Notes under the pieces: model-generated
What the model was told of the DNA's origin: nothing
The model's database searches: none
What the model saw: the letters and a program-made list of their open reading frames with translations, nothing else
Shown: one piece after another, positions 27,412 through 53,515 of the stretch
Numbering within the stretch: position 1 is the first letter of the stretch
How the letters are laid out: every line of letters starts with the position of its first letter
IMG/VR virus record: IMGVR_UViG_3300024352_000020
Location: 1 to 64,000 of that record
From: a virus
Reading direction: 5' to 3' (one strand)
DNA length: 64,000 nt
Made by a program: the position numbers and the translations under genes

Positions 27412-28221
27412 TTAGTTCCCCTTTAAATCGCTTAATATAGTTCCTGGAGGTTCATAATTTGCAAAAACATAAAAATATCTAGGTCCAGTGTTTTGATAAG
27501 ACAATTCATGATCAGCAAACCCAAAATTTTGAACTCTTGTTTCTGGTAATTGTGCAGTTTCTAAATAACTCCATTTCGGCCCTTTTTCCATTCCGTTAAA
27601 AATAGCTGCGTCAAAATTTATTGGGTTTCTTACTTCTAGGTTTCTTTTGTCAATTGAACCTGTATAACAATTATGTGCACCCAAAGGAATTCCCTCTGGT
27701 AGTTCAAACTTTAAATAGTTTACATTTGTTAAATCGGTCAAACTTTTCCATCTATCAAAAGGAAAACCATTAGTTGAAGCACTAATAAATTTTTCTAAAC
27801 TTGGATCTCCTAATGTATAATAGTACTGTTTACTTTTTGGATCTTTTCCTGCGTTACATTCATATAAAAATGATATGTATAAAAAAGGTTTTTCTTCTAA
27901 ATAATAAAATTTAAAATAAATACTTGTTTTAAATCCGACTTCCTTAACTAATTCCTCTGGACAACAACCAATAGGATGTCCTGATGAAAAATTTTGATCG
28001 TAAATCATAATATCGACATTTGATTTTCCATAATTTGAATTTTTTATATACTGTTTTGTCTGTGGAAACTCGTAGTAAAATTGATGATTAAAATCTCTTG
28101 GGTTAAAATTTAAATTTTTATTTTTTAAAAAAAGCCAAGATGGACTTTGTGATCTCCAATTGAATCTTGGATCTGTAAAGAAAAATCCAGCTGTTAAATT
28201 ATAAACTTTGTTGTTTAACAT
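27412..28221 (-). CDS. virion protein of unknown function, 269 aa
   Basis: The start ATG 28221 overlaps the stop of the 2,647-aa gene by one base. It is aromatic-rich and beta-rich without catalytic motif. Its C-terminal part (FADHELSYQNTGPRYFYVFA) resembles a segment of the 2,647-aa protein near residue 1680 (FYVHESTLTRQNSNPIFYVA): spaced Glu, Gln-Asn, Pro, then FYV and Ala. The two may derive from one domain. It has CCPEE near residue 90 and a few other cysteines. A fibre-associated role is inferred from the neighbours. Confidence 0.5.
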   Translation of the reverse strand: MLNNKVYNLTAGFFFTDPRFNWRSQSPSWLFLKNKNLNFNPRDFNHQFYYEFPQTKQYIKNSNYGKSNVDIMIYDQNFSSGHPIGCCPEELVKEVGFKTSIYFKFYYLEEKPFLYISFLYECNAGKDPKSKQYYYTLGDPSLEKFISASTNGFPFDRWKSLTDLTNVNYLKFELPEGIPLGAHNCYTGSIDKRNLEVRNPINFDAAIFNGMEKGPKWSYLETAQLPETRVQNFGFADHELSYQNTGPRYFYVFANYEPPGTILSDLKGN

Positions 28222-31200
28222 TATTTTCGTCCTGCTGCAACATAAGGTGGTTTATTTGGCTTGCCATTAAACTCTCCAGTTGCCCAATCTAAATAAGCTT
28301 GTTCTGCCGTAAGGTTTTTGCCTGGTATACTATAAAAACAAATATCTTTAGAGATGTTTTGCTCTCCGGTTACTTGATATTGTTTTTGCTCTCCTTTGAC
28401 ATTTACATTAACTGTATCTAATGAATTTCCTGGAATAGATTGCAAGCATCCATCTTCATCTATGTATGTTTTGTATTTAATAGTCATTTGTGCACAAAAA
28501 CCAACTTCTTTTGGTTGTTGTACAACTTCACCATTAACCAAAGCATTTTTAACATTTGATTTACAAAAATTACAAGGTTCAAGTTTGCCTCCAAAATTAT
28601 CTATGTTTGTATCTGTGTAAGGAGGAGTTGCAAATTTTTGTCCATTATAATCTCTTTGAACACAAGGAGGTTTTGGTTCATTACCACGCCTTAAATTATC
28701 TACAACTACAGCTGGATTGCCTGGTTGTGGTACTCCAGCTATACCTCCACCACCACCAAAACCACCACCACCTAAACCAAGACCTCCTAAACCACCTAAT
28801 CCGCCTAAACCGCCTGGATAACCATATCCACCGCCAAAACCTCCTGGTCCTGGTCCTGGAGGCAAACAGTCTAAAAGACCTGGAGTTCCTCCATAAATAG
28901 CATGTTCACATATTTTTTTAATTCCACAAGCTGTATTTATAAGTATAGATTTACAACATTTATTAACTATATTAGTTATAATTCCATAAACACCTCTTAT
29001 ATAAAAAGTATATACTTCTTCTCCTGGTGGACATGATCCATTAACAGGATTAGTTCCGGTTGGTAATGGATTTGGTGGTTGTGGGCGTGTAGGACCAGTA
29101 ACAGGATTTGTAGAATTAGTACCAATAACACCTGGGCCAACAGCATATGGTTCTGGTTTAACCAAAGGACTGTCTGGGTTAATAGCTAAAGCAGAAGAAT
29201 TAAAATTATCATCTGGATCTTCAGCACCTTCTGGATTTGCTAAATCTTGCGAAGGAACTATTTCTCCAGTAGGATTTCCATCTTCATCTACATAAGGTCT
29301 TCCAGTCGCAGGATCTATTTGTAAGTTATAAGTTAAATTATTAAAATTTGAAACAGTTGTACATTTTCCATAAGAAAGCATGAATGGATCAACATTTTTA
29401 ATGTTTGCTGACCAATGAGACATAATGTCAGCTTGCGTAACTGGTGCTATATTAGATAAAGATGTTAATAATTCTCCCCATTGAGCAGCACTAATAACCA
29501 TGCCCTGACCTTCTGCCATAGCTGAAGGAGAACCATTAAATCCAATAAGATTTTCACCACAAGGACCATTCTTTTCTAGAATAGCTTGTTGTAATGAACC
29601 ACTCATATTTGAACTACTGAATGGGCCTACAAGCGGAACATAATCGCCTTCGTTATATAATTCATTTGGCTTATTTATTGAAAAATATTTTTTAGGATCT
29701 GTTTCTTTTCCATGAAAGTAAGAAGAACATGCTTGTCCAACTAAACTAGCAGCACTATCAATAAACTTGCTTCCGTTATTTCTATTTAACCAAAGACCTT
29801 TTAACAAACACGGTCCAAAACCAAAGTTAACAGCTGAATTAGTTCCATTTAACATATTTCCTATTTCAAGCGTGTTATGATTACCTATAAGTGCTATAGT
29901 TCCATTTTTAAATCTATGTAAACCAACTTCTGATTCTGGATCTGGATAATAAACCTCACATCTTGGATTACAAATTGCACCAGCTACGAAATTTGGTAAC
30001 CAACCAGTATCTCCAGATATATTTACAGAACCTCTATAGTATGGGTCTGGTCCATAAAGAAAACCACGCTCATATGGATCGTTATAAAAACCAATAGTAT
30101 TAAAAGTTACAACTAAGAAATTAGAATAACCATCTTCTTCATTACCTCTTCTTGTAAAAGCAGGACTTAATATAAAATAAGCTGTTTGTGCAGAAAATGT
30201 GTAGCCTTCTGGGGTTGTATATTTACTTGTTTTACAACCAGTTTTTATGTGTTCATCAATTTTTATATTTAATGAATCAGTGATTGGATAAGAAGGTTTT
30301 CTACAATTTGTAGCATCTAAATGAGGAACTGGAAAAACATTGCTATTAGCTAAAACATTTGTTAACGCAAAATAATTTCTTTGTGCCTCTAATAATCCCA
30401 TTGCAGACGCAGATATTGATGGTAACACAACGCCAAAATCTGGATTATTTTGTGCTGGAAAATCACCGCAATTAAAAAGATAAGATGTATCACTTCTGTC
30501 GGGACTTCTAATATCGTGAATATTTGTTCCATGAACTGAATGTTTTAACTGAGTAAATCTTAACCAAGATCTTCCAATTCTACCCTTTTCTTTTTGTGAG
30601 TAGTTCCAATAACAAACGGTATTCGACATAACTGGACCACCAGAATTATTTACTGGATCGCCAATGTCATTTTCAATAACTTTTCTTACATAACCACCAA
30701 CAGTTATATAGATTTTACCATTTCTAAATGTAATTCCATCGGGCATTTTAAGAGCAGTACCAGAAGGACCAACGGTTGTAGTTGTTCCTCCCGGCCCTGT
30801 AGTTGTTGTAGTAGCTGTAGTCGTGGTTGTAGTTACAACAGGAGGTAATGGAGGACGATTAATACTTATTTTTGTTGTTGTTGTTTGAGTATTTGGTGTT
30901 GTTGTAGTAGTTGTTATTAAACCTGTGCAATCTGGTTCTAATGTAATTCTTGTGGTATTATTATATTCAATATTTGTTCCGCCTATATGCCTTATTTCTT
31001 TTAACATACCTCTGATATTATATATATTTCCTATAGAGTATGCATCTAATGTTTGGTATATAGAAAGAGGGTTTTTAGGATTATAACTTGCAGCAACATA
31101 GAAAATCGGATTTGAATTTTGTCTTGTCAAAGTTGATTCATGAACATAAAATTCTGGTTGAATATAACCATATTTTAAAAGCGATCTTCCATAAGGTAAT

Positions 31201-34200
31201 TGTTTAAAAGAACATTCCCACCTAGATATAAAAGCTTTTTGTTGTTCTTCATTTTGATAAGGAACAATTTCTTTTATATTTTTATCATAAAATACTATAC
31301 CAACTAAACAACCATGACTTGCATGCCAAGGATCTCTATTCAATACGACAGAATTAAGATATTGTTTTTGACTTGGATTTCTAATTATTATAGGAACAAA
31401 TCTTTCATCTTTAAATATAGAGCCTGTTCCTGAAAGTTGATCGATTATTTGTTTTTGTGAATCATTTAATTGTGGATATGATTTTTTCCAAAAATAAAAT
31501 GTTGTTCCTCCAGATTGATATTCTTCCTGTGTATCAAACCAAAGTTGTAATTGCCAAGTTATATAATGAAGACCTATATTTATATTTGATCTAGAAGAAA
31601 AACCTCTTAAAATAATACTTGTGTTTATAAATCTTTTTGTGTTTAAGTTGAAAAGACACTTTCTTGGAATGTTACAACTTTTTAAAAAGTCATAATATGG
31701 ACCAGTTTCTTCAGGTGGATATTCATTGGTTAATGGATCTGTTAAAATAGAAATTGGTTTATAAGCAAAATAATATAAAGTTGGATCATTATTAGTAATA
31801 AAATCATTAGATGTTAATTTTTCAAATCTTCCATCTGGCAAATCTGTTACATAAATTCCAGTATAAGGACTAGTACTATATTGTTTATAATAATTTAAAA
31901 ATAAATTTAATTCAGGACAACAATTATTTGCTGGTTTAGATAAATTATTTAAATTAAAACAATATTGAAAAGTTGATGTCAATTCTGCTTTAGCTAAATC
32001 GCATGGTGTAGGAGGTGCACTTGTAGTAGTGGTTGTAGTAGTGGTAGTGGTAGTTGTACAGATAGCTAAAGAAGCTGCCTGTAAAGCAGTTTCACATTCT
32101 TCCTGAGATGTGTATATTCCACTTCCATCAACTTCACAAACACAATCAAAACAATCTAAAGCTTCGTTATAAACAGATTTCCAACTTGGACATGGAGTTG
32201 TACTAGTGGTAGTTGTTGTGGTTGTTGTAGTAGTCGTAGTCGGAGGAGTAATACTACTACATTCAACATGGTGAACATGAGCATTGCCATTAAAGAAACT
32301 GGTTATTACAAATTTATCGGTATCGGTGTTTTCATTTTTTGGAAAGAATTCTATGTTATGAAATAAATAGTCTTCACCGAGATCATATTCATGCCAATTA
32401 AAACTATCAAATGTAAAATATATATATCTTTTATCAGTTAATGCTATCGCACCTATTCCATTTGAAACTACATCTATAAATTTTACTGGGGCATTAGCAT
32501 TAATATTATTTATTATTACTGATTGCCACTGAGTAAAATTATTTGGATATGAAACTTTAAGATTACCATTATTATCTATTGCTAAATAATGCAAAGAATC
32601 AAAATCTATTCTTTTGTAAGTGGATTTGAGTGTTATGCCTTGGTTTTGAGCTATTATAAATGTATTTGAATTTCCTTTTTTAACATAAACATCATCCGAT
32701 GAACTTGTTGATAATATAAAAATATCACTATTATTTGTAATTGGTTCTAAATAAGCATCTCCATTAAATGTACCTTCAAAAATTTTACCACTTCCAAAAT
32801 AACACTTATATACATTGTTGTTTTTAGTTAAAAAATAGTTTTTTGTAACAGAAACTACATATTCTTCAGAAGTTTCAAAAATTAATTGTTCTGGAGGTAA
32901 AATACTTGGAGCAATAATCATAGAAGAATCTGTGTTTAAAACAGCTTCTATATTAAAATTAATATCAATAGGCGTATTAAAACTAGAATTATTTGGTGTG
33001 TTTATTAAGTTATAACCTAAATTATCAAAAAGATCATATCTAATTTCTGTATCAAATAAATTAATGTCATTTGTTTTATAAAATGTCTCTAAATTTCCAA
33101 GTATATAAATAATGGCTGTTTTATTTGTATTATTACCAATAGAAGATAAATAACCTTTTTTAATATATGGACTTGGAGAAGTAGCTTTTTCAACTTTTAC
33201 TGTTTTCCAAGTTCCAAAACACTCTGGAGGTGCTTGAGTAGTTGTTGTAGTCGTTGTTGTGGTTGTTGTCGTTGTTGTCGTAGTAGTTGTGGTGGTATTT
33301 AAACTAGTAGTTGTTGTAGTTGTATTAAAATTATTTTGTAATACATGCACATCGCAAGAACATGATTCTGTTAAAAATTCAAAATTTGGAATTGACTGAA
33401 ATTTATTGAAAGTTGTAACAAATTTAGGTTCTATTATTGAAGTGTTATTTTTATTAGTTGGACTATTAAAACTTCTATACATAAAAGGAAATTTTTGATC
33501 ATCAGTATTTCCAAAATAAACCGGAAGAGTTTGATAAAGCAAAACAGTTTCTATGCCGGTTTTTAATGGAACAGAAAAATTATTTGAAACAAGAGATATT
33601 TTAAAGTTATCTAATCCTAGATCACCAAGTTCTGTTAAATTAGGTTCAAAAAGTTTTATATATGGTATTTTTATAATATTTAAACATTCAACTGGAGAAC
33701 CAAAAAAAAGCACATCATTTAACTGATCGGTTAAGCTTTTTCCGGCTTCGCCAGGTTCATAAAATTCATAACATTGTTTTCGCAAAACAATATACAAACT
33801 GTGCCAATCAGCATCAGATGCAACATATTCCAAATTACATTTATTATAATCGGTATCCAAAAGTATTTTATAATCTGTAGCGTTGTCATCGCCTTGCTCA
33901 AGAATAAATTTAGAAATACTTGGTGCAGTTCCTGATGGAAGACCGTTATTTTGTAATAAATATTTAAATGTATAAAATTCAAATGGTGTAGCTACAAAGA
34001 AATTTGAAACAAAGGTTGTGTTTCCATTTATAATTTCGGTAGTACGATTTTCATGAATAAAAATAGAACCTTTAATGTCATATTTATCTTCAAATATTTT
34101 TACAAAGTTATAAGTTATAAAACCAGAAGCATTTTGTGTTAAAGTTCTGCATTTTGTTTGTGCTTCTTCTATTTCTTCAGTATTGGATTTAAAACCAACA

Positions 34201-39102: not shown

Positions 39103-39105
39103 TTC

Positions 39106-39564: not shown

Positions 39565-39572
39565 TTCTCACC

Positions 39573-40103: not shown

Positions 40104-40111
40104 AGATAACC

Positions 40112-40432: not shown

Positions 40433-40433
40433 T

Positions 40434-41513: not shown

Positions 41514-41546
41514 TTGATTATCCTCTTAAGAAGTTGTGCAAATTTA

Positions 41547-41555
41547 TATACACCA
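41547..41555 (-). promoter_or_regulatory. TGGTGTATA motif upstream of holin candidate
   Basis: This motif directly follows the stop codon of the 39-aa frame (TAA then TGGTGTATA) and continues as TAAATTTGC. It is 34 bases before the holin-candidate start and is a one-base variant of the other four motifs. Confidence 0.35.
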
Positions 41556-42180: not shown

Positions 42181-42187
42181 GTTTCAC

Positions 42188-45100
42188 CTAGCACCACAAA
42201 ACAATTCCACAATTCACTCCATACCAATTTGCTGTTGATGATGCGTTTTGAATAGGGGTTACATAATGGTAACCAATACTGCTGGTATATCCATGTGTTG
42301 AAATAGTTCTTACAACATATCCTGAGATTTGCGAATCAGTATAAGCTGTTCCAAAAAATGATGTTGTAGAATCCAATCCGAAACCAGCTTGAGCAGTTGA
42401 TCCGGCAGCACCGGTTCCAACAGCCAATACCCCAGTTATTAAAACTGGAGACTCATTAAGTCCATTAATAAAATTAAGTCTGGTAACGCTTGCTCCACCA
42501 TTCCATTCTCTACTTGCACCACTCCATGCAAAATTAAGTGAAAAAGCGGTAACAAAACCATGCCTTAAAATTCTGTTGTGATTGTTCCATAGGTAACGAT
42601 TGGCAGCAGAATCTTCAGTTGTAGTTGCAGCAGTTGCCCTAAATGTTCCAAGATACCTTCTGCTTAAATCTGTTGTTTTTACATAAACACCATTTTGAAA
42701 AGATATTGCAGAACTTCTTGAAGAAGTAGTACCCCATGCTACTGGAGGGTCTAATGCTAATGTTCCAGAACTTAAATAACCAAATACATCATACAATGTT
42801 CCAGAAGATAATCCTGAAAGTGCTAATGTTTTTTCTGTGAAAGAACAATTTACCCAAGAAGAAGATGATGTGTTATATAAACTTATTTTATCACCATTAT
42901 AAGGTGTGTAGTAGACATTAGATGCTGATGTGACATCAGAAGTTGTTACTGGTGTACCAGATGTTAATGTCAATCTTCCACCTGAAAATAATCCTTGTAC
43001 TTCCCAACTAGGTGCTGCTGTTCCGTTAGAACGCAAGACCTGACCAGATGTTCCAGCAGCAAGAAATGAAGTCGCTCCTGAACCTGTGTTGTAGGGAATC
43101 TGTCCTGCACCACCGCCAAGCAAATTGGTAATTCCGTTTGTCCAGCTTAAGTTTCCGCTACCATCTGTTTTTAAAACATAGTTGTTGGTTCCAGCAGTAG
43201 TAGGCAATGTTAATGTGTAATTGGTGGCTATAGTTGCTGGAGATTGCATGGCAACATAATTGCTGCTATCAGCGTCTGCAAATCTTATGTCTGTCTGTGC
43301 ATTTAGGTAAAGATTTCCGGTGGCATCAAAATAACTGTATACAGTAGTTCCTAGATAATCTCTGAACTCTAGTAATGGGTATGTCTGACCACTTGCACCA
43401 AAAATTCCAAAAACACCAAATGCAGCATTATTGCTGTAAAGAGCTAATTGATCATAAGCTGATGAGCCATATGAAAAGGAGGAAGTAGCTGTAAAACCAG
43501 CAGAACCATCATTGTATTGAATATCTCCAGTAGAGCCAGCAGCACTTGCACCAGCAGCACTAGTCCAAGATAATGTTCCTGCACCATTAGTTGATAAAAC
43601 TTGTCCAGATGTTCCATCGGCTGTTGGATAAGATAATCCAGCAGCAACAAGAGTACCAATAGTAGCTTGTCCAGCTATTCCAGCACCACCAGCAACAATT
43701 AATGATCCAGTACCAGTAGTTGTACTAGCAGTAGTATCATTGATAGTAGTAGCACCAGTTGGACCGATAGAAAACAGAGTTGCTGTTGTACTATCTTTTA
43801 ATATAACTAAATTTCCAGTTTGTGATGCAACAGCATTTATCGTTAAAGTATTGTCTGTTGTTACAGTTTCAGTAATCGTTAATCCACTTAAAGTTCCAAC
43901 ACTAGTTATAGAACTAGTATTCATCCAACTTGGTGCTGAAGTTCCATTGCTTTTTAAAATTTGACCACTTGTGCCAGCAGCAAGAAATGATGTAGCACCA
44001 GAGCCAGTATTATATGGAAGTTGTCCTGCACCACCGCCAGCAATATTTGTTGCAGATGTAGCATTACCGCTTAATGAAGCAGTTATAGTTCCAGCCGAAA
44101 AATTTCCCGAAGCATCTCTTTGTACTACATATGAAGCAGTATTTGTTGAACTGGAATTAATTCCTATTGTTCCAGTTGATGTAATAGTTCCACCAGTAAT
44201 TGGCGAATTTGTGGCAATCGAAGTTACTGTTCCATTACCTGTACCAGCACCGATAGAAGTTCTAAATGTAGATGCAGACTCTGCTGTAACAGTATTGTCT
44301 GCATTAACTTTTAAAAATGTTACTGCTGAAGGATTTGTTAGCGTAAATAAATTACTTCCTACTGTTGTACCACCAAGACTAGTTCTTCCTGTAGCAGCTA
44401 CTAAATTTGTTGAGCCACCATCCCATTGACGGCGTTCAGAATATGCGGAATCCCAGTTGGTCTGACTTGCCGAAGTTGGTAGTGCATAGCCAGTATCCAT
44501 CGCAATAGCGATTGTTCCACTAGATGTAATCGGAGAATTTGTAACTTTCATTCCTGTTGGAACAGATACGCCAACAGATGTTACAGTTCCACCTGAAGAT
44601 GGAGACGAGTTAGTAATTGTAAACGAAGGGTAAGTACCAGTAACCGATATGCCAGTTCCAGCAGTCAATGTTACAGTCTGATCTGGTGAACTATTGGTAA
44701 TAGTGAAATTTGGATAAGTACCGGAAGTAGAAATTCCTGTTCCAGCAGTCAAAACAACAGTTTGATCTGGTGATGAATTAGTTATCACACCAGTCGTATT
44801 ATTGTATGAAATACCAGTTCCAGCAGAAAGAGCGGACCTAGCCCTAGTATCTGTGTAATAAAGATTTGAGCCTTCACTTATACTAGATGTTGATCCAGCT
44901 ACATTTTCCCAAACTTTAGAAGAACTATTGTATTGAATAATATCATTATCAGCTAAAGTTCCACTATTAATGCTGACATTATGTAATTCTTCTAACTCAT
45001 AACCATTTTGTATATTTACTAATATAGAACCTTGATTAACACTTACATTTACTACAGTTCCAATAAATACAGCATGATCTGGAGCAGTTGGTTTAGTAGT

Positions 45101-48100
45101 AGTTAAACCACCAGCAGTAGTTGGCGATAACCACAATGTATTTCCAGCAGAAAAGCTAGAAGTGTTTACATTTTCTAAAAGTCCTTGAGCTACAACAAAA
45201 CCATCAGCATTATGATTTATTGTTTCTGCAACAAGGGCATATGTTTTACTAGAATCAGTCTCTGTATTTGCTTGTGCTAATGCTACTGTTGGTGTGCTAC
45301 CACTTGCACCGTTTACATAAACAACTTGTTTTGGACTTAATGTAGATCCAGTAGAATTTTTAACTTTAGTTCTAAAATTTAATACTTCTTTAAATTCTAA
45401 TTCACCAAAACCATCTGTGCTTAAAAACTGTCCACCTATTCCATCAGAAGGTGGTAATGTCCAAATTGTGTTTGCAGAAATTGAATCAGGAGCTTTAAAT
45501 CCAACATAATTACTTCCATTAGCCACCAACTCTAAAAAACGAAGTTCGCTAGTATTTCCAGCAGAAGAACCATATGGGGCGATGCTTATTTGACCAGAGC
45601 TATATGTGAATTCAGCAGTTCCATCAAATGATCCTGCGTTATTATATTGTAATTCTCCAGAACTTCCTCCTGGCGTAACAGTAGCTGGATCGCCTTGAAA
45701 CCCTTGGTTACCCTGATCACCTTGGAAACCCTGATTACCTTGGTCACCTTGGAACCCTTGGAACCCTTGGTCACCTTGGAAACCCTGATCACCTTGATCA
45801 CCTTGGAACCCTTGGTTACCCTGATCACCTTGGAAACCCTGATTACCTTGGTCACCTTGGAACCCTTGGAACCCTTGGTCACCTTGGAATCCTTGGTTAC
45901 CTTGGTCACCTTGGTTACCCTGATCGCCTTGAAACCCTTGGTTACCCTGATAACCTTGGAACCCTTGGTTACCTTGGTCACCTTGGAAACCCTGATTACC
46001 TTGGTCACCTTGGAAACCTTGATTACCTTGGTCACCTTGAAACCCTTGGTTACCCTGATCACCTTGGAATCCTTGGTTACCTTGGTCACCTTGGTCACCT
46101 TGGAAACCTTGACTACCTTGGTTACCTTGTAATCCTTGATTGCCTTGGAAACCTTGGTTACCAGTATCGCCTTTATCACCAGTTCTAGCGAAAGTTAATA
46201 AAACTTCATCTTGATCAGAAAAAGAACCACTACCAGAAAGATAAGAAACATCTATATCAAAATAACTTGGACTAGAATCAGATAAAGAATTTATTGCGTA
46301 TATAGCAAAAACATTTGGTGAAAACTTTTTAGATATCTTTACATGACCTTTAATAGTACTTGTTGAATCATCTATTGTATTTAAATAGATAGACAAATCT
46401 ATATTTGCATTGTTTGGATTATCATCAATTAATAAATGTGTTGCAGAAGAAATATCAGAATTATTAAATCTTATATAATTATCGCCTGGATCGCTTATAG
46501 ATGTATTTAATCCATCAAATTTATACTCAACAGTTACACCGCCGAAATTTCCATCATTACCTTGTGAGCCTTGCGATCCTTGAATTCCTTGTAAACCTTG
46601 TAATCCCTGATTACCCTGTAAGCCTTGAGTGCCTTGATAACCTTGAGATCCACGATCAACAATCATATCCCAAAAATATTCTTCTGGTGCATTTCCAGCA
46701 GAACCAATCGTAATCATCATTACCCATAATTGGCCGTTATAGGAAACTGCATCTCCAGCATTATAAACTATGCCACTATTATAAGTACCAACATAATTAA
46801 ATGGTTGTGATCCTTGATAACCTTGATTGCCTTGGTAACCTTGAAAACCTTGATCACCCTGAAAACCTTGTTCGCCTTGATAGCCTTGAAACCCTTGGTT
46901 ACCTTGATCACCCTTGCTTAATACTAAATCCCAATTGCCTGGATAAGCAGGAGGAATGTATCCTGCTGCACCAATGTAATTACTCATTACATAAAGAGAA
47001 CCATCATAAGTTACTGCTTGACCAACAGAATATGTGACTCCATTATTATAAGCACCAAGATAATTAAAAGGTTGAGAACCTTGATCGCCTTGGAACCCTT
47101 GGTTACCCTGATCACCTTGGAACCCTTGATTACCTTGGTCACCTTGAAAACCTTGGTTACCCTGATCACCTTGGAACCCTTGATTACCTTGGTCACCTTG
47201 AGAACCTTGGTTACCCTGATCACCTTGGAACCCTTGGTTGCCTTGGTCACCTTGAGAACCTTGGTTACCTTGATCACCTTGGAACCCTTGATTACCTTGG
47301 TTACCTTGGAACCCTTGGTTGCCTTGGTTACCTTGAAAACCTTGTCTACCTTGAAAACCTTGGAACCCTTGGTTGCCTTGGTTACCTTGAAAACCTTGTC
47401 TACCTTGAAAACCTTGAAAACCCTGTATACCTTGAAAACCCTGCGGTCCTTGATTACCAGCATTATTTGGTTCAAAAATAGTATGTATAATTCCATTACT
47501 GTCTAAAACAAAACCTTTCTTATCTACAACATTTATAGCAAATTCATTTATTTGCATATCGCCAGAATTTGGTATAGATCCAGCTATGTAAGATCTTTTT
47601 GGTTTTATTGCTATATAAGGATCTTGTGTTGTATGCGTAGGTGCTACTGTTGTAGTAGTAGTCGTTGTAGTTGTGGTTGTGGTCGTAGTAGTTGTAGTTG
47701 TAGTAGATTGATTATATGCAGTTATTGATACATTAAAATTAACATTACTAATCCAAGAACTTGAATAAAAATCAAAATAAAAAGTAGATCCAGTAGGAAC
47801 AACAAAACTTTCATTAAAACTTAAATTTATTGGATATACATATGGTTCTGGAGGTTGACTAAAATTTGTATATGTACTATCTGAAATTGGATAATTAAAA
47901 CTACCTTTATAAACTAAACCACTACCAGATATATTTAATGTTACGAATGGTGGATATGCATCTCCTGTTTCTGGATCATAAGAAAGTATCTCTATAGTTA
48001 CATTTGAAGATGGCGTTATTGGAGGTTCAAGTGGAGAATGAATTGGACCTGGTCCAGATGGAGAAAGAACCATAGAAAATGAATCAGAACTAGCATATGG

Positions 48101-48934
48101 CCAATCTGTACTTGGACCACCAATAGAACTAAATGATGTTTGATAATTTAAATAAGATCTAAACTTAACAACAGATTGTTGAGGTGATTGCGTTGTAGTT
48201 GTGGTTGTTGTAGTAGGATTTGGATTGATATAGCAATCAAGTTTTGCAAATTGATCACCGCTAAATGTAATTAATTCAGTTATTATATATGTTCCACTTA
48301 TATCTCCAAAACCACCACTTAAAATAATAAAATCATTAAATGATAATATATCTCCAACTTGTAAATCATAAGTAGTCCATGTAGAACCATTAAAAAAATT
48401 AATTGCCGGACCAACACCAACCATACTAGCTGTCAAAAGTTGATAAGGGCCACCAGTAAAATAAAATCCGTTATTTGAAGTTATTGAAGCTCCACTAGGG
48501 GTATTACTAGCAGAAGAGCTTGAAACATCTATGCTCCAATTGGCAAAACAATCTCCTGAGTTATCTGGAACAAAATAAAAACTACCACTAGAACCCACTT
48601 CAATTCCATTAGCAATAATTGAAATTTGTGATCCAGCATCAATATATATAGGAAAAGAAAAAGAAAAAACATGAGGAAGCATTGAAGCTGTTTCATTAAT
48701 ATAATCTATAGTTCCATTAGGACCATAGACTCTTAATATTAAAGAAGCACCAGTAAATTGAGCAAAAGCTGAGTATTGGGCTAATAAATAACCAGACTCT
48801 GATGCATTAAAAGAAAATACAAAATAACCTGGATTTGGTTGATTGTTTGCCTGATAAACTAAATATGGATCTTGATATGTTCCAGAGCCTGTATATGTAG
48901 CATTTATTATAGATTGATCGATTGTAAATGACAC
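42188..48934 (-). CDS. giant collagen-like tail fibre, 2248 aa
   Basis: I use GTG 48934, nine bases after GGAGG and overlapping the preceding TAG; a TTG at 48940 is only three bases from the site. Order of parts: N-terminal beta-sandwich (1-200), poly-Thr linker (about 238-248), beta domain, longer poly-Thr linker (about 410-430) ending VAPTHTT, then G-F-Q/G-N-Q/G-D-Q collagen blocks. Two CBM-like modules interrupt these (YNNGVTYSVGQAVTYDGSLY; YNSGIVYNAGDAVSYNGQLW). The C-terminal 1,100 residues are repetitive beta fibre (GTGISVTGTYPSFTITNSSP type) and a compact tip ending WYGVNCGIVLWC. This is the best candidate for a host-recognition fibre. Confidence 0.8.
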   Translation of the reverse strand: MSFTIDQSIINATYTGSGTYQDPYLVYQANNQPNPGYFVFSFNASESGYLLAQYSAFAQFTGASLILRVYGPNGTIDYINETASMLPHVFSFSFPIYIDAGSQISIIANGIEVGSSGSFYFVPDNSGDCFANWSIDVSSSSASNTPSGASITSNNGFYFTGGPYQLLTASMVGVGPAINFFNGSTWTTYDLQVGDILSFNDFIILSGGFGDISGTYIITELITFSGDQFAKLDCYINPNPTTTTTTTTQSPQQSVVKFRSYLNYQTSFSSIGGPSTDWPYASSDSFSMVLSPSGPGPIHSPLEPPITPSSNVTIEILSYDPETGDAYPPFVTLNISGSGLVYKGSFNYPISDSTYTNFSQPPEPYVYPINLSFNESFVVPTGSTFYFDFYSSSWISNVNFNVSITAYNQSTTTTTTTTTTTTTTTTTTTVAPTHTTQDPYIAIKPKRSYIAGSIPNSGDMQINEFAINVVDKKGFVLDSNGIIHTIFEPNNAGNQGPQGFQGIQGFQGFQGRQGFQGNQGNQGFQGFQGRQGFQGNQGNQGFQGNQGNQGFQGDQGNQGSQGDQGNQGFQGDQGNQGSQGDQGNQGFQGDQGNQGFQGDQGNQGFQGDQGNQGFQGDQGSQPFNYLGAYNNGVTYSVGQAVTYDGSLYVMSNYIGAAGYIPPAYPGNWDLVLSKGDQGNQGFQGYQGEQGFQGDQGFQGYQGNQGYQGSQPFNYVGTYNSGIVYNAGDAVSYNGQLWVMMITIGSAGNAPEEYFWDMIVDRGSQGYQGTQGLQGNQGLQGLQGIQGSQGSQGNDGNFGGVTVEYKFDGLNTSISDPGDNYIRFNNSDISSATHLLIDDNPNNANIDLSIYLNTIDDSTSTIKGHVKISKKFSPNVFAIYAINSLSDSSPSYFDIDVSYLSGSGSFSDQDEVLLTFARTGDKGDTGNQGFQGNQGLQGNQGSQGFQGDQGDQGNQGFQGDQGNQGFQGDQGNQGFQGDQGNQGFQGDQGNQGFQGYQGNQGFQGDQGNQGDQGNQGFQGDQGFQGFQGDQGNQGFQGDQGNQGFQGDQGDQGFQGDQGFQGFQGDQGNQGFQGDQGNQGFQGDPATVTPGGSSGELQYNNAGSFDGTAEFTYSSGQISIAPYGSSAGNTSELRFLELVANGSNYVGFKAPDSISANTIWTLPPSDGIGGQFLSTDGFGELEFKEVLNFRTKVKNSTGSTLSPKQVVYVNGASGSTPTVALAQANTETDSSKTYALVAETINHNADGFVVAQGLLENVNTSSFSAGNTLWLSPTTAGGLTTTKPTAPDHAVFIGTVVNVSVNQGSILVNIQNGYELEELHNVSINSGTLADNDIIQYNSSSKVWENVAGSTSSISEGSNLYYTDTRARSALSAGTGISYNNTTGVITNSSPDQTVVLTAGTGISTSGTYPNFTITNSSPDQTVTLTAGTGISVTGTYPSFTITNSSPSSGGTVTSVGVSVPTGMKVTNSPITSSGTIAIAMDTGYALPTSASQTNWDSAYSERRQWDGGSTNLVAATGRTSLGGTTVGSNLFTLTNPSAVTFLKVNADNTVTAESASTFRTSIGAGTGNGTVTSIATNSPITGGTITSTGTIGINSSSTNTASYVVQRDASGNFSAGTITASLSGNATSATNIAGGGAGQLPYNTGSGATSFLAAGTSGQILKSNGTSAPSWMNTSSITSVGTLSGLTITETVTTDNTLTINAVASQTGNLVILKDSTTATLFSIGPTGATTINDTTASTTTGTGSLIVAGGAGIAGQATIGTLVAAGLSYPTADGTSGQVLSTNGAGTLSWTSAAGASAAGSTGDIQYNDGSAGFTATSSFSYGSSAYDQLALYSNNAAFGVFGIFGASGQTYPLLEFRDYLGTTVYSYFDATGNLYLNAQTDIRFADADSSNYVAMQSPATIATNYTLTLPTTAGTNNYVLKTDGSGNLSWTNGITNLLGGGAGQIPYNTGSGATSFLAAGTSGQVLRSNGTAAPSWEVQGLFSGGRLTLTSGTPVTTSDVTSASNVYYTPYNGDKISLYNTSSSSWVNCSFTEKTLALSGLSSGTLYDVFGYLSSGTLALDPPVAWGTTSSRSSAISFQNGVYVKTTDLSRRYLGTFRATAATTTEDSAANRYLWNNHNRILRHGFVTAFSLNFAWSGASREWNGGASVTRLNFINGLNESPVLITGVLAVGTGAAGSTAQAGFGLDSTTSFFGTAYTDSQISGYVVRTISTHGYTSSIGYHYVTPIQNASSTANWYGVNCGIVLWC
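45690..46165 (-). repeat. Gly-X-Gln coding repeat block, C-terminal set
   Basis: The block has 9-base periodicity with higher-order 18- and 27-base units encoding G-N-Q-G-F-Q-G-D-Q. Many units are identical at DNA level with the block at 47080-47450 of the same gene, giving substrate for unequal recombination. Confidence 0.88.
47080..47455 (-). repeat. Gly-X-Gln coding repeat block, N-terminal set
   Basis: Same repeat units as 45690-46165 in direct orientation, separated by the CBM-like modules and a globular domain. Confidence 0.88.
47645..47705 (-). repeat. poly-Thr linker of the 2248-aa fibre
   Basis: About 20 threonine codons in mixed synonymous use precede VAPTHTTQDP, just before the collagen region. 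A shorter tract lies at about 48190-48220. Confidence 0.88.
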
Positions 48935-50994
48935 TACCAAGTTCCTCCATCTACATCAACCCAAACAAGTTGATTAGAACTATTGTATGTTAATATTTGT
49001 CCGGTAGATCCACCAGATGGAAAACTTGCTTCACTGCCTTGAAATCCTTGATCTCCTTGATAACCCTGATCACCTTGATAACCCTGTTCTCCTTGATAAC
49101 CCTGATAACCTTGTTCTCCTTGGTATCCCTGAAACCCTTGTGAGCCAGCAGTAAGAATTATATCTTCTTTTGCCCAATGATTTATAGAATTTGGATCATA
49201 TCTATATACCCATAAAATTAATGGATCTGTGTCATCTGGAGCAAATGCCCATTGATAAACTTCTGGAGGACCACTCGGATAAGTTGTTAAAAGATGAGTT
49301 TCGTTTTCAAAAGTTCCTATAAATTCTGAATAATGACCATCAATACCTTGATAACCTTGAGAGCCTTGATAACCTTGTGTTCCTTGAAATCCTTGATTAC
49401 CTTGAAGACCTTGATTACCCTGTAAACCTTGATTTCCCTGCAATCCTTGATTACCTTGAAGTCCTTGGTTGCCTTGATTACCTTGATGACCTTGAAAACC
49501 AATAGAGCCAACAAGACCTTGTCTACCTTGACTGCCTTGAAGACCTTGATATCCTTGTAAGCCCTGATAACCTTGTGGTCCACGAATCGGGCCAACATTA
49601 TCCCAATAAACAGGGCTAGTGCCTGTGTATACAACTCCGTCTCCAATAGCAGCAGTTCCATTGTCTGGATTAGGACAAGATTGACTAGCAGATCCTTGTG
49701 CTGTAGATGTAAGTAACCACATATCTCCAATAGTGGCAGTTCCAGTTTGATTATTGAAAATATTTTGCCAAGTATCAGAACCTTTTATTTCAACTCCAGC
49801 ACCTGTTTGTCCTTGATTGCCTTGACTTCCTTGATAACCTTGTAAACCTTGACTACCTTGATTACCTTGCAAACCTTGATTGCCCTGTAATCCTTGATTA
49901 CCTTGAAAACCTTGATTACCCTGAAAGCCTTGACTACCTTGAAGTCCTTGATTTCCCTGAAGTCCTTGATTACCTTGAAGACCTTGATTTCCTTGAAATC
50001 CTTGTAAACCTTGATTACCTTGAAGACCTTGAAAACCTTGACGACCCTGAAGACCTTGTAAACCTTGATTTCCTTGTAAGCCTTGATGACCTTGTGTTCC
50101 TTGATTACCAATATCACCAACAAGGAGTAAAGATATTGTAATTTGTTGGTTGTTACTTAGTGAAAACCCAGAAGATGTATTAACATGTTCTATGTTAAAC
50201 GAAGCATAAGTACTATTAACTGTATTTGAAGATGTTATTTTAAAAATAGAAAATTTAGAATTATCATTAATTGGTTGAATAACTATATATGATTTTACAA
50301 AATTAGTAGAATCATCTAATAAAGAATAAATAGAACTAATATTATTAGAATTTATATCTAGACCACTAAATAAGGCTATTGTCGCAAGAGAAAAATTAGA
50401 GTTATTTAATCTAAACTGTTCTGGAGTTGGAACACCAGATGTTAATGTACTAAATAAATAATTTATATGTAATGAACTAACGCCTTGATAGCCTTGAGAT
50501 CCAACTTGTCCAGTTATATTAACATCCCAAACATTACTACTTCCAGTGCCAACTACATAATCCACATCAACAACTATGCTCGATGTGTTTGGATCAGTAG
50601 ATAATATAAGACCTTCTAAAAAATGAGATGTATTATTATTATCTACTATCCTTACTCTAATACCAGCCCTAATAGCATCTATAGATAATACAGAAAGAGT
50701 TTTTAGTCCAATAGTTTTGGATATAGTTGATAAAGATGATGTAGCACCGAAAGAAATGCCTATTGAACCTTGATCACCTTGAAAACCAATAAAACCTTGG
50801 TTTCCTTGATTACCTTGATTACCTTGATTTCCTTGATTGCCTTGTGAACCCTGAATACCTTGAAGACCTTGAGAACCAGTAACAACTCCTGGAATAAAGT
50901 TAGTGCCATCAAATTTAATGACATTTCCAGAAGAAGGAACACCTACAAAATCGTCTTGATCTTGTATTCTTGATGGTCTTTTGCTGAAATGCAT
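48934..50994 (-). CDS. collagen-like fibre, 686 aa
   Basis: Start ATG 50994 lies 3 bases from the sulfotransferase stop. Short Gly-X-Gln blocks (GNQGNQGNQGNQG; GLQGNQGLQG) alternate with globular segments. One segment near 90-180 has beta strands; another near 180-290 (INYLFSTLTSGVPTPEQFRL) resembles a segment of the 2,248-aa fibre (VTVEYKFDGLNTSISDPGDN through a FD-hS ending). A third near 410-470 carries SQSCPNPDNGTAAIGDGVVY, and a fourth near 555-615 WAFAPDDTDPLILWVYRYDP. The C-terminus (GSTGQILTYNSSNQLVWVDV) is a tip element common in phage fibres. It is probably a side-fibre partner of the next gene. Confidence 0.75.
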   Translation of the reverse strand: MHFSKRPSRIQDQDDFVGVPSSGNVIKFDGTNFIPGVVTGSQGLQGIQGSQGNQGNQGNQGNQGNQGFIGFQGDQGSIGISFGATSSLSTISKTIGLKTLSVLSIDAIRAGIRVRIVDNNNTSHFLEGLILSTDPNTSSIVVDVDYVVGTGSSNVWDVNITGQVGSQGYQGVSSLHINYLFSTLTSGVPTPEQFRLNNSNFSLATIALFSGLDINSNNISSIYSLLDDSTNFVKSYIVIQPINDNSKFSIFKITSSNTVNSTYASFNIEHVNTSSGFSLSNNQQITISLLLVGDIGNQGTQGHQGLQGNQGLQGLQGRQGFQGLQGNQGLQGFQGNQGLQGNQGLQGNQGLQGSQGFQGNQGFQGNQGLQGNQGLQGNQGSQGLQGYQGSQGNQGQTGAGVEIKGSDTWQNIFNNQTGTATIGDMWLLTSTAQGSASQSCPNPDNGTAAIGDGVVYTGTSPVYWDNVGPIRGPQGYQGLQGYQGLQGSQGRQGLVGSIGFQGHQGNQGNQGLQGNQGLQGNQGLQGNQGLQGNQGFQGTQGYQGSQGYQGIDGHYSEFIGTFENETHLLTTYPSGPPEVYQWAFAPDDTDPLILWVYRYDPNSINHWAKEDIILTAGSQGFQGYQGEQGYQGYQGEQGYQGDQGYQGDQGFQGSEASFPSGGSTGQILTYNSSNQLVWVDVDGGTW
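49340..50105 (-). repeat. Gly-X-Gln coding repeats of the 686-aa fibre
   Basis: Two 9-base-period blocks (about 49340-49600 and 49805-50105) encode mostly G-L-Q, G-N-Q and G-F-Q triplets. Shorter blocks lie near 49040-49140 and 50770-50875. Confidence 0.85.
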
Positions 50995-50997
50995 TTT

Positions 50998-51561
50998 TTA
51001 TTCCAAAAATTTTGGTGTTATTCCATTTATACAACCGTCTATATAGAATACACCACAAAAAGCAGCTATTTGTTTTGCTGTAGATTCAGTATTTTGCATT
51101 AAGTCTGAGTAATTAACTATTAATTTTCTGCCTGAAAAATTATTAAAAATATTTTCAGCTGTATTATACTGTTTTTCTATAGTATCTGGAAAAGCTTGAT
51201 CGCCCATAAGCATAGAATATTCAATATTGGCTTTGTTTATATTTCTTTTTGCCCATATTATACTAGTTTGTATTGAAGTTTCTGATATGAACTTATTCCA
51301 TGCATCTTTTTTTAGAAATTCAAATGATCTTGTTCCAATTTTTCCTTGTTGAACTGTTTTTAGTTTTAAATCCCAGTAATTTTTTGGATTTGTATAAATA
51401 TATCTTGTGTACTTATCATTGAAACTTCCTGTTGGATACCAGTCTGGATTATCATTTGCATTCTCTCTTTCTCCCATATTTATGCCAAGAGAGTTTAATA
51501 TTTTGGCTATAACGCTAGTTCCAGATCTATAAGAACCAATTATAATTGTGCAATCTTTCAT
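50998..51561 (-). CDS. sulfotransferase-family protein, 187 aa
   Basis: Sulfotransferases move sulfate from PAPS to hydroxyl groups on glycans, lipids or peptides. The N-terminal P-loop-like 5'-phosphosulfate motif IIIGSYRSGTSVIAK is at residues 6-20. A second motif near 105-120 (WAKRNINKANIEYS) places Arg and Ser as in the 3'-phosphate-binding element. The C-terminal LIVNYSDLMQN strand-loop is also typical. At 187 residues it is shorter than most family members but keeps the core. Start ATG 51561 overlaps the glycosyltransferase stop (ATGA). Its neighbours are fibre genes and a glycosyltransferase, so modification of a virion or host surface glycan is the natural inference. The acceptor is unknown. 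Confidence 0.8.
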   Translation of the reverse strand: MKDCTIIIGSYRSGTSVIAKILNSLGINMGERENANDNPDWYPTGSFNDKYTRYIYTNPKNYWDLKLKTVQQGKIGTRSFEFLKKDAWNKFISETSIQTSIIWAKRNINKANIEYSMLMGDQAFPDTIEKQYNTAENIFNNFSGRKLIVNYSDLMQNTESTAKQIAAFCGVFYIDGCINGITPKFLE

Positions 51562-52493
51562 TCTAAATCCTCGTTTCGTTCTTTGAAATAATTCTCAATT
51601 GATTTTAAAAAGTCTTTATTGTCGCCTACATATCTATACAAACCTTGATCGTTAACTAAGTCTTTAGAAACATTAAAATTAGTATCTTTTAAAATTTTTT
51701 GTCTTTCTATATATTTTCTATTAACTTTATCGCCATGATTTAAATGAAAAATAGGTTGATCTATATAATCAAAATTTATTTCTACATTAGATTTGTTATT
51801 TAGTATATCTTTTAAAAAACAAATAACGCTATCTTGTTTTCTTTTTATAAAAGGTATTTCTATGTCTAGGCTTAAATTAAGCCATTTAAAAAGATTAATA
51901 GTGTCTCCGCCACCTATAATGCATTTATCATATAATGGATTATTCAAAAGTGTTTCTTTCTTTGTAATCCATGCCATTCCTGGGTTACCAAAAGTATAAT
52001 CACTTGAATTAAAAGTTTTAATGTAATTTTCTTTTCCGTCTGATTTAATTATTTGCGATGAAACACTCGGAGTGCTATGACTATAAAAGCCATGATTTCT
52101 ATAATGATTTTTTGGTAAATAATAAACATCAGAAAATGGTTGTATAAATAAATTTTCTTTTTGATCCAATTTATTTTTTGCTTCTTGCACCCAATTATCA
52201 TCACTAAATAAAACATCACCATCAATAAAAGCTATATACTTAATAGAATCTGGCATTTTTTCGGCTAGATAATTTATAACTCTTTCCTTTTGCCAAAGTA
52301 ATTGATCTGACTTTAAAGCAAAAAGACCTTGCATATTTAAGTCAAAACTATTATTTGTAGAAATTTCTATAGGAACAATTACACATTCATATTTAAGCAT
52401 ATGATTATAACAAACATTAAAATTTCTAAATAAAGATATTCTTTTAAAATGATTCCAATAATACATTATTATTGCAGTATCTAAATTTTTCAT
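51558..52493 (-). CDS. GT-A-type glycosyltransferase, 311 aa
   Basis: The protein has a Rossmann-like N-terminus (LDTAIIMYYWNHF), then WQKERVINYLAEKM at about 67-80. The metal-binding DxD motif IAFIDGDVLF follows (Asp91, Asp93), as in nucleotide-sugar transferases of the GT-A fold. Farther on, GNPGMAWITKKE and GGGDTINLFKWL fit the acceptor/second metal region of galactosyltransferase-like families. It begins with ATG 52493 overlapping the previous stop (ATGA) and ends overlapping the sulfotransferase start, so the three genes form one coupled unit. The donor sugar cannot be read from sequence. Confidence 0.75.
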   Translation of the reverse strand: MKNLDTAIIMYYWNHFKRISLFRNFNVCYNHMLKYECVIVPIEISTNNSFDLNMQGLFALKSDQLLWQKERVINYLAEKMPDSIKYIAFIDGDVLFSDDNWVQEAKNKLDQKENLFIQPFSDVYYLPKNHYRNHGFYSHSTPSVSSQIIKSDGKENYIKTFNSSDYTFGNPGMAWITKKETLLNNPLYDKCIIGGGDTINLFKWLNLSLDIEIPFIKRKQDSVICFLKDILNNKSNVEINFDYIDQPIFHLNHGDKVNRKYIERQKILKDTNFNVSKDLVNDQGLYRYVGDNKDFLKSIENYFKERNEDLE

Positions 52494-53494
52494 GCTTTTA
52501 CCTTAATTTCTTGTGAATAAGGAATAAGTTGCATTTGATTTAATTCAGCTTCTTTTGAAGCTATGGATTGACCAAAAAATACTGTGTTTGGAAAATAAGC
52601 TAAATATTTTGTAAACATAAGTTTATCTATATCATCGTATGATGAATAAACAAAACAATAAGATTCATCTTCTGGATTAAATTTTTCTGGATCTACAAAC
52701 TCAACTCTTTTTTCTAATCCAAATCTTTCTAACCAAATTTTTGTGCCAATAAAATTTATTTTAGTTTTAATTGGAAAAGCTATAATTTTACAAGCCGATT
52801 GTGCCAAGACAATAAGTTCTGCTGGAGATGAACCTACATAAACAACTTTTTTTTGATCAGCTAATTGATAAAGTTTTAAATAATCATCGGCTATAAAAGA
52901 TTGATCTATTCCGTCTGGAAGAATTAAAGGAAAATCAAGTTCATCAAAATCAATTTTTTTATTATCAAAAAGTAAATTTAACTTAGGCCAAAAACAAACT
53001 AGGCTATAATAACGCATAAAAGAATTTATGCTTTCTGTTATACTATTTTTTACTTCAAAATTTTTATATAGATCTTTTATGTATCTAGATGAAAATAAAA
53101 ATGGACCAAATGTATTTTTTTCTAAAAAATTTGTAATGTTATAGTCAGGGCTTCTAGATTGAAAAATTGGTCCTACATAAAGTTTTAAAATTGCTACATC
53201 TATTTGATATCTAATTAATGGTTTCCATGTAGACAGATTATTATAAAAAAATTTAGAAAGTTTTTGTTTTCCGTCTAAAAATAAAAAATATTCATAAGAG
53301 TCTAAAGATGAAGCTTCATATAAGAAACTTTCAAACAAATCTCTTCTGTTTTTTCCATTTATATATACTACTTTTCCGCCAAAGTCAGTTTCTTCTAAAT
53401 TGCTTTTGTTTCTTGCGTTGTCAAAAACTACCAAATTGCTAAATGGTTTTGTTCCAACTTTTATTTCTGATACTCTAGGACTGCATATTTCCAT
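52490..53494 (-). CDS. glycan-island protein of unknown function, 334 aa
   Basis: The real start is probably ATG 53494, six bases after AGGAGGA (53501-53507), rather than the ATG 42 bases upstream that lies in the promoter-like region. Strands such as KVVYINGKNRRDLFE and YEYFLFLDGKQKLS near residues 50-95 recall the strand before the DxD motif in GT-A enzymes, though DGK lacks the second aspartate. VVYVGSSPAELIVLAQSACK near 215 and KRVEFVDPEKF are Rossmann-like. A divergent or inactive glycosyltransferase partner is possible; no firm family call is made. Confidence 0.5.
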   Translation of the reverse strand: MEICSPRVSEIKVGTKPFSNLVVFDNARNKSNLEETDFGGKVVYINGKNRRDLFESFLYEASSLDSYEYFLFLDGKQKLSKFFYNNLSTWKPLIRYQIDVAILKLYVGPIFQSRSPDYNITNFLEKNTFGPFLFSSRYIKDLYKNFEVKNSITESINSFMRYYSLVCFWPKLNLLFDNKKIDFDELDFPLILPDGIDQSFIADDYLKLYQLADQKKVVYVGSSPAELIVLAQSACKIIAFPIKTKINFIGTKIWLERFGLEKRVEFVDPEKFNPEDESYCFVYSSYDDIDKLMFTKYLAYFPNTVFFGQSIASKEAELNQMQLIPYSQEIKVKA

Positions 53495-53515
53495 AGTATA
53501 TCCTCCTACTAATAT

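Follow-up and report, generated by a model that had tools for sequence, protein, structure and literature searches.

The window analysed here is the stretch of 64,000 nucleotides formed by bases 1-64000 of the 94,518-base virus record IMGVR_UViG_3300024352_000020, and its minus strand carries the tail, fibre and head genes. Two large fibre proteins and a tail protein encoded there contain tracts rich in threonine (Thr), which an initial annotation had proposed to be glycosylated by enzymes of the phage itself. The present work concerns these tracts and a candidate enzyme for their modification, a GT2-type glycosyltransferase (GT) with a D-x-H motif (DxH GT2), whose gene lies just beyond the window. 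The genes on which the argument turns are as follows, with lengths in amino acids (aa).

28221-36164, minus strand: 2,647-aa fibre-like protein, read from its translation, in which seven Thr/Pro tracts link other, partly Cys-containing segments
42188-48940, minus strand: collagen-like fibre of about 2,250 aa with two Thr tracts ahead of G-x-y repeats (Pfam Collagen 6.9e-56, CBM_5_12 6.4e-9)
356-3796, minus strand: 1,146-aa tail protein with a short C-terminal Thr tract, heading a set of this gene, p385 and DxH GT2 (synteny in loci L257, L258, L255 and L260)
3-353, minus strand: first 117 aa of a 385-aa open reading frame (ORF), p385, cut by the window edge (window mapped onto the related record G003)
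G003:150748-151575, off the window: 275-aa DxH GT2, the next gene after p385 (same mapping)
53599-54588, minus strand: major capsid protein, used as the marker for relatives (PHROG major head protein 1.5e-5; 104 relatives)

Threonine tracts in the fibre and tail proteins

The tracts of the 2,647-aa ORF occupy residues 63-74, 359-383, 948-976, 1306-1324, 1370-1387, 1751-1756 and 1778-1789, those of the ~2,250-aa ORF residues 243-250 and 412-431, while the 1,146-aa ORF ends in TQTTTLSPTTTTPSV. The seven, two and one short C-terminal tracts counted in the initial annotation are all present in the translations, and far above chance: ten runs of at least six Thr were observed against 0.002 expected from composition. 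Its proline-containing spacers LSPT, QAPP, SAPP and VAPT were likewise all found in the tract proteins. Because the Thr codons are mixed (identical neighbours in 26 of 105 cases against 34 expected), the tracts are not plain ACN microsatellites, and an origin from pure ACN microsatellites is not favoured for the window. The fibres carry the Thr/Ser/Pro-rich tracts by which mucin-like proteins are recognized, and the 2,647-aa protein has no match in PHROG or Pfam. Relatives at about 75-77% capsid identity possess far longer linkers of Thr, Thr-Pro, Ser-Pro or Thr-Ser, with up to 392 Thr within the tracts of one ORF. Such tracts would form extended, probably disordered linkers of virion fibres and tail proteins.

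The window is a member of an uncultivated phage clade with records of up to 221 kb. Its capsid protein has 104 relatives in the viral contig collection (the best 80 of these loci were used in locus counts), and records of 206 kb and 221 kb encode a capsid protein identical to that of the window. Tracts were scored as T8 runs, defined as eight consecutive ACN codons, a definition that other Thr-rich linkers escape. T8 runs occur in 14 of 28 related records, which corresponds to 12 of the 26 used for enzyme counts. These 26 are not independent, as G000/G003, G004/G005 and G008/G025 are same-species copies. Moreover, of the T8-free records, G024 and G026 belong as fragments to the tract-bearing group, judged from capsid identity, and a third (G011) has TTTASP-type tracts.

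Several side observations concern the wider occurrence of such linkers. Environmental virus contigs commonly contain runs of 16 Thr codons, with at least 119 stretches found; of 80 examined, 58 sit in open frames of at least 200 codons, and several terminate in APP-type spacers. In G008, two fibre-like ORFs (G008:39595-41607 and G008:44866-48474) have a p215-type C-terminal domain joined via Thr-Pro or Ser-Pro linkers, and the pair shows a chymotrypsin-like protease signature, GDSGSALV, noted by eye, together with many Cys-rich repeats of the form CCNGxC...NCGxCGxxC.

A DxH glycosyltransferase in the tract-bearing phages

DxH GT2 begins 792 bases past the left edge of the window in the same species, the window ending at position 149956 of G003. 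It is found two genes after the 1,146-aa tail gene, late in the run of tail genes. The order of tail gene, p385 and DxH GT2 is repeated in L255 and L260 with a tail protein version of 77-79% identity, and in L259 the enzyme follows a 60% tail homologue, with p385 not detected at that locus. A separate observation concerns L255 (G003:1-4229), where p385 and DxH GT2 accompany part of the 1,146-aa gene in a version of 79% identity, at the very start of the contig; this copy may be a duplicate, or sequence of a sister phage wrongly joined in assembly. A search with PF00535 revealed two stand-alone 275-aa copies in G003 (221 kb) and, inside the fibre cluster of tract-rich relatives, ORFs of 595-599 aa with the GT2 domain at the N-terminus.

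Across the clade, the family (alignment A5) is found in 7 of 26 related records, namely in 7 of the 12 with T8 runs and in none of the 14 without. Five of these seven records have it mapped inside the fibre cluster; a sixth, G025, has tract ORFs within 10 kb upstream of it (L273). DxH GT2 fits the tracts better than do the enzymes named in the initial annotation. Since a 251-aa GT-A-fold protein, described below, is similarly distributed within the clade, the weight of the argument rests on evidence from outside it.

One such line of evidence is provided by distant phage relatives. A scan of viral contigs with A5 found 127 relatives, of which the best 80 were used. T8 runs were present in 10 of 50 records with distant relatives (42-51% identity), against 1 of 42 records drawn by random 15-mers and 0 of 32 drawn by another GT2-containing protein (10/50 versus 1/74, Fisher p 4.7e-4). 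Among records of at least 20 kb, the contrast was 9 of 20 against 1 of 36 (p 1.7e-4). The whole-record counts cover 50 of 57 distant DxH loci (L276 and L278-L326), leaving out L327-L333, which ranked lower, and L203, a copy of L280; the records are imperfectly independent, G103 and G105, for instance, having identically scoring enzymes and possibly representing the same phage. As to the controls, the one random record with a T8 run was drawn by a pure ACC 15-mer, and the set of 32 takes in short or weak matches. This second control alignment was used because the first, built on a single glycosyltransferase, had just nine relatives, and eight of those were at least 91% identical. The gene immediately before DxH GT2, on the same strand, is a tract gene in L309, L326 (the same record as G119) and G154. 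G139 has a tract gene on either side of the enzyme, one separated from it by two ORFs and the other by one, and in L280 five ORFs separate enzyme and tract gene.

Bacterial homologues and their Thr-rich neighbours

A second line of evidence comes from bacteria. A scan of bacterial genome contigs with a further alignment, A8, found 109 relatives in many phyla, judging by record titles, and the best 80 loci (L472-L551) were used. Thr-rich ORFs cluster around the enzyme gene, with 13 within 3 kb (381 kb) and none at 3-10 kb (619 kb); a second definition of Thr-rich ORFs gave 14 near and 1 far. The near-to-far ratios for control ORFs were 4:3 (Gly-rich), 5:10 (Ala-rich), 3:1 (Ser-rich) and 10:5 (Pro-rich), and no bias comparable to that of Thr-rich ORFs was seen for the Gly-, Ala- or Ser-rich classes. 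Counting Thr-rich stop-to-stop frames of at least 60 codons, 38 fall within 3 kb and 3 at 3-10 kb, with a p of 3e-13 that takes the frames as independent; per locus, the figures are 33 near and 3 far. Where loci are GC-rich, Thr frames on the opposite strand may be artefacts. On the enzyme's own strand are 26 of the 38 near frames, and same-strand loci number 22 near against 2 far.

Many of these loci also encode short proteins whose start is twin-arginine-like and which have a W.KPVV..V..PAHA-type motif and a Thr/Ser/Pro tail. Thr-tailed neighbours of this kind of enzyme occur, for instance, in Rhizocola hellebori (L545, beside a short homologue), Oricola and Hyphomicrobium. There are 33 copies in 21 of the 80 loci, sometimes two to four together, with 30 within 3 kb and 3 far. 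Either a Thr-rich frame or such a peptide is found within 3 kb of DxH GT2 in 43 of 80 loci. As read from their motif, the Thr-tailed peptides are putative substrates of the twin-arginine translocation (Tat) system.

The bacterial enzymes are often fused to other domains. Among 72 homologues surveyed with Pfam (the 80 less eight second or duplicate copies), there were fusions to GT25 (20), PqqD (9), HPr kinase (9), sulfotransferase (2) and a GDP-mannose-dehydratase-like domain (1). In L524, a sulfotransferase-TPR-GT2-GT25 fusion adjoins a Thr-tract gene. The functions that the initial annotation listed do meet in bacteria, around DxH GT2 instead. A possible new bacterial system is thereby outlined, in which DxH GT2, often with GT25, PqqD-like or HPr-kinase-like partners, stands beside Thr/Ser/Pro-tailed peptides of the twin-arginine type. 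No description of a pairing of DxH GT2 with Thr tracts was found in titles or abstract openings of the literature, the queries for which did not extend to Tat-exported Thr-tailed peptides.

Possible kinship with the GT27 and GT60 families

Passages of PMC7185993 state that GT27 and GT60 have DxH instead of DxD and that in GT27 metal is bound by the C-terminal His, and they place GT7, chondroitin-type GT2, GT27 and GT60 in one clade. DxH GT2 likewise has DxH in place of DxD. The Asp and His of this motif, an E-E pair and a later His (H214) are invariant in all 33 aligned sequences of A8, and a motif search found DxH in 78 of 80 bacterial homologues. H214 is near the domain end, close to a GALNT10 segment ending in GHIYRK. 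With the A8 profile, GALNT10 was matched at 0.0026 over residues 37-220, while better-scoring matches span only the first ~120 residues. Pfam recognized PF00535 in 33 of 33 aligned sequences and PF02709 weakly in 11 of 33.

Enzymes of the GT27 family possess a C-terminal lectin domain. The phage enzymes differ: most copies are stand-alone proteins of 255-299 aa and so leave no room for one, and no lectin family appears among the Pfam families of A8 or among the 25 of 32 listed for alignment A10. In place of the WGGE[NQ] motif of GT27, the aligned sequences mostly show GGEE[GW]Y. From its motifs, DxH GT2 may work like a GT27/GT60-type enzyme; it is not filed here as a member of GT27.

A local sugar cassette and a 251-aa GT-A protein

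The glycosyltransferase and sulfotransferase genes to which the initial annotation had turned are different ones and lie inside the window, between the capsid gene and a collagen-like gene. It also named gmd, but neither the 251-aa GT-A-fold protein nor DxH GT2, the latter being outside the stretch available to it.

48934-50994, minus strand: 686-aa collagen-like protein (Pfam Collagen 2.9e-43)
50998-51561, minus strand: ST187, a short sulfotransferase-like protein (PF13469, 31.5 bits; 4 of 26 records)
51558-52493, minus strand: GT311, a GT-A-like glycosyltransferase (Foldseek GT-A matches from a low-confidence model; 4 of 26 records)
52490-53536, minus strand: GT-like protein of 348 aa, overlapping GT311 by 4 bases (no family match)
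56526-57281, minus strand: 251-aa GT-A-fold protein between the portal gene and a 480-aa gene (alignment A1; model confidence, pLDDT, 79.5; Foldseek, VIA-align)
61969-62964, minus strand: GDP-mannose 4,6-dehydratase, gmd (PF16363, 5.5e-107)

The assignments made for these genes fared unequally. That of gmd is firm, with its PF16363 match of 5.5e-107. The sulfotransferase call has modest support, since the 31.5 bits of ST187 exceed the PF13469 cut-off of 27 through a C-terminal stretch of 46 residues only; sister copies score 15.7, under the cut-off, and a sequence search of PDB gave only weak, unrelated matches. GT311 looks GT-A-like from a poor model (mean pLDDT 46.9; top Foldseek rows bacterial GT6, chondroitin synthase and B3GNT2), with no Pfam match at 1e-3, a sub-threshold match to PF00535 and, in PDB sequences, one uncharacterized protein at 0.016. 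The GT-like 348-aa protein could be placed in no family by library searches. Among the loci examined, it is present only in the L002-L022 group and in second copies of the same contigs, and a suspected homology with the 599-aa DxH fusion, noticed by eye in the C-terminal half of the latter, was rejected at an hhalign probability of 0.8%.

The three cassette genes overlap by 4 bases at each junction. Of the 80 loci, 19 have GT311 near the capsid gene (L002-L004, L006 and L008-L022; L005 and L007 stop before its position). By profile, GT311 and ST187 each occur in 4 of 26 related records, which are two species with two records apiece. All four carry T8 runs, so that the cassette is found in 4 of 12 T8 and 0 of 14 T8-free records. 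The expectation that the named enzymes would co-occur with Thr tracts across related phages is mostly contradicted, as 8 of the 12 tract-bearing records, the longest-tract ones included, lack GT311 and ST187. Similarly, of 13 among the 80 capsid loci with a tract in view, four have GT311 and nine do not, although L067 is too short for a verdict and three loci, L039, L040 and L061, are near-copies. Because long-tract relatives do without GT311 and ST187, the tracts are independent of the cassette, which is local and confined to one sub-lineage; its pairing with Thr tracts is weak. The only other PF13469 match in 24 records searched was in the T8-free record G012.

The 251-aa protein has GT-A matches by Foldseek and VIA-align (Z up to 14.8), and in alignment A1 it shows AxD where DxD is usual. 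Its profile matched no PDB sequence at E up to 5. Kinship with collagen GT25 was considered and rejected: COLGALT1 is the top Foldseek row, yet VIA-align places many GT-A families within 1.4 Z and does not have COLGALT1 among its best 50 rows. From the model, only a GT-A fold is claimed, and the protein may serve the same fibres as a second enzyme or may be degenerate.

Further sugar genes occur past the tail genes in G003. The region G003:153000-164500 encodes two PF00534 glycosyltransferases, one PF13524 glycosyltransferase and a nucleotidyltransferase (NTP-transferase); on account of these, the phage can be said to have a rich sugar toolkit, and the domain content suggests that it may make its own activated sugars. 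Elsewhere in the same record, G003:52001-53251 and 201892-203142 are 84%-identical copies of a gene for a 416-aa protein that has a GT2 domain and, by eye, a methyltransferase-like C-terminal half.

Standing of the phage among annotated relatives

Searches of 50,697 annotated phage records yielded no match for the capsid protein, and none for DxH GT2 or ST187. GT311 had one match, in Xanthomonas phage XaC1 (28%). The terminase had 15 distant matches at 21-26%; at about 25% identity, it bears a remote resemblance to the terminases of Bacillus phages Staley, Stahl, Slash and Stills and of Microcystis phage MaeS. Accordingly, no named cultured relative was found from the capsid, terminase, DxH GT2, GT311 and ST187 searches.

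One more collagen-like gene lies in the fibre region.

36157-39102, minus strand: 981-aa collagen-like protein with a CBM5/12-like segment (Pfam Collagen 3.1e-90, CBM_5_12 2e-9)

A W-x-T-x-LYFW-x-N-x-WIPI motif was seen by eye at the end of this protein and near the start of the 2,647-aa, 445-aa and 80-aa proteins (36157-39102, 28221-36164, 25907-27244 and 27168-27410, all on the minus strand). Perhaps it is a shared virion-attachment module.

Weighing the explanations

The explanation that best accounts for the whole is that the Thr linkers of the clade are O-glycosylated by the phage's own DxH GT2, although we hold it tentatively, at just short of an even chance. A phage-encoded DxH-motif GT-A glycosyltransferase, related to the GT7/GT27/GT60 group, would probably O-glycosylate the Thr tracts, with stiffening and protease shielding as the likely benefit. 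The tracts, the gene order, the co-distribution and the motifs are there to be read in the sequences; from them we infer the activity, sugar, acceptor and benefit of the enzyme. The general idea of the initial annotation, that the phage glycosylates its Thr tracts, is in this way supported through DxH GT2, while the route through GT311 and ST187 finds little backing. Phage-made glycans on Thr linkers, supplied by an enzyme outside the window, are a reasonable working hypothesis with a little less than an even likelihood. It is also conceivable, though somewhat doubtful, that a widespread and undescribed prokaryotic form of mucin-type O-glycosylation exists, in which DxH GT2 modifies Tat-exported, Thr/Ser/Pro-tailed peptides in bacteria and is used by phages to coat the Thr linkers of their fibres.

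A number of results weigh against these proposals. Within the clade, five T8 records are without DxH GT2, all of them fragments of 24-94 kb, and G011, with its TTTASP tracts, lacks the enzyme in its 22.8 kb. The clade correlation may represent one evolutionary event and does not single out DxH GT2, given that the 251-aa protein is present in 12 of 26 records, comprising 10 of 12 with T8 runs and 2 of 14 others. Among the distant phage relatives, 40 of 50 records have no T8 run; within 10-kb flanks, the counts of 4/57 versus 1/42 and 1/32 are not significant; and viral near-to-far counts of Thr-rich ORFs are weak (5:2, p 0.11; 6:1, p 0.02). Approached from the opposite direction, DxH GT2 was found in only 3 of 50 records chosen for their 16-Thr-codon runs and had no match in the other 47, these being 50 of 80 loci picked for in-frame ORFs. 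In bacteria, Pro-rich ORFs likewise lean towards the enzyme (13:8, p 0.03). As for its kinship, the second half alone (A9) matched GALNT10 at 0.12 and GALNT7 at 0.25, both ranking behind a lectin (0.076); with the narrower A5 profile, no GALNT came up at E values of up to 1; and the Pfam family that we take to represent GT60 is absent from the Pfam results. On such sequence comparisons, the case for membership of DxH GT2 in GT27 appears weak.

The tracts could instead be unmodified spacers, flexible or stiff, that change fast in length and composition, with the glycosyltransferases acting on the host surface, DNA or the capsid. Their placement between other fibre segments would suit this, as would the turnover of T, TP, SP, TS and ASPTTT linkers in one gene neighbourhood, the existence of p215-type proteins with no linker (G010), and the abundance of 16-Thr-codon stretches in viral contigs, at least 119 of them, alongside the 47 of 50 chosen records without DxH GT2. 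All linker variants observed nonetheless retain Ser or Thr, and DxH GT2 keeps close to Thr-rich genes in bacteria and, in phages, shows enrichment alongside tracts; we consider unmodified spacers unlikely, if far from negligible. It is improbable that the tracts are glycosylated by the 251-aa protein or a host enzyme while DxH GT2 does something else. The 251-aa protein does have a fair GT-A model and, being in 10 of the 12 T8 records and 2 of the remaining 14, a better fit to the clade than DxH GT2, but G016 has tracts and no such gene between the portal gene and the next, and AxD at the place of DxD is atypical for an active metal-dependent enzyme. Beyond the clade, where no search aimed at it was made, there is no link between this protein and Thr-rich proteins.

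Two further possibilities centre on the cassette, which might extend or sulfate a glycan, or act on the capsid or on a host glycan. In the version of the initial annotation, GT311, the GT-like 348-aa protein and ST187 build and sulfate an O-glycan on the Thr tracts. The three genes with their 4-base overlaps do lie between capsid and fibre genes, 4 of 4 cassette records carry tracts, and, among 72 homologues, bacterial DxH GT2 is itself fused to a sulfotransferase twice and to a GDP-mannose-dehydratase-like domain once, with the L524 fusion adjoining a Thr-tract gene. That version is nevertheless improbable in view of the 8 of 12 tract-bearing records without GT311 and ST187, the 9 of 13 tract-bearing capsid loci without GT311 and the presence of another clade sulfotransferase in the T8-free G012. 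Alternatively, the cassette might glycosylate the capsid and have nothing to do with the fibres, which would be compatible with modification of the Thr linkers by DxH GT2. In all 19 of the 80 loci showing GT311, the cassette directly follows the capsid gene, and part of PMC12619734 describes glycans on mycobacteriophage capsids and tail tubes; with gene position as its basis, a capsid role seems a minority prospect.

Comparison with known systems

If glycosylation by DxH GT2 proves true, it would give protein O-glycosylation in phages and bacteria a specific enzyme with its substrate, account in part for the poly-Thr linkers of environmental phages, and supply a prokaryotic parallel to mucin-type O-glycosylation that can be put to the test. 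The bacterial loci, with short, cloneable acceptor peptides beside the enzyme gene, make the question testable in an ordinary laboratory.

Several known systems invite comparison. Glycosylation of mycobacteriophage virions by phage glycosyltransferases was reportedly demonstrated by Freeman et al. in 2023, and the likeness lies in the use of phage enzymes with virion proteins as acceptors. Part of PMC12619734 reports glycans at the C-termini of mycobacteriophage capsid and tail-tube proteins and glycosyltransferase core groups in moraphages; here, in contrast, the proposed acceptors are the poly-Thr linkers of fibres and the enzyme is DxH GT2. Chlorovirus PBCV-1 glycosylates its capsid with a virus-encoded GT-A enzyme, presumably the one named A064R, and the structures 2p73 and 2p72 are among the Foldseek matches of the 251-aa protein. 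PBCV-1 is, however, a virus of eukaryotic algae, and the likeness is one of fold only.

Other parallels concern the enzyme and its neighbours. The HPr-rel-A/PqqD-type peptide systems (TIGR04352 and TIGR04353) resemble the bacterial loci in that HprK-related or PqqD-like domains occur in some bacterial DxH GT2 homologues, and a PqqD-like start in one Thr-tract neighbour. They differ in that scores are under the equivalog cut-offs and most phage copies of DxH GT2 are stand-alone. Finally, GT27/GT60 mucin-type O-glycosylation shares with the proposed system the DxH motif, a His near the C-terminal end and Thr/Pro-rich acceptors or neighbours; unlike GT27, DxH GT2 has no close sequence match there, shows GGEE where GALNT7 has GGEN and GALNT10 has GGEQ, and belongs to a prokaryotic and phage setting.

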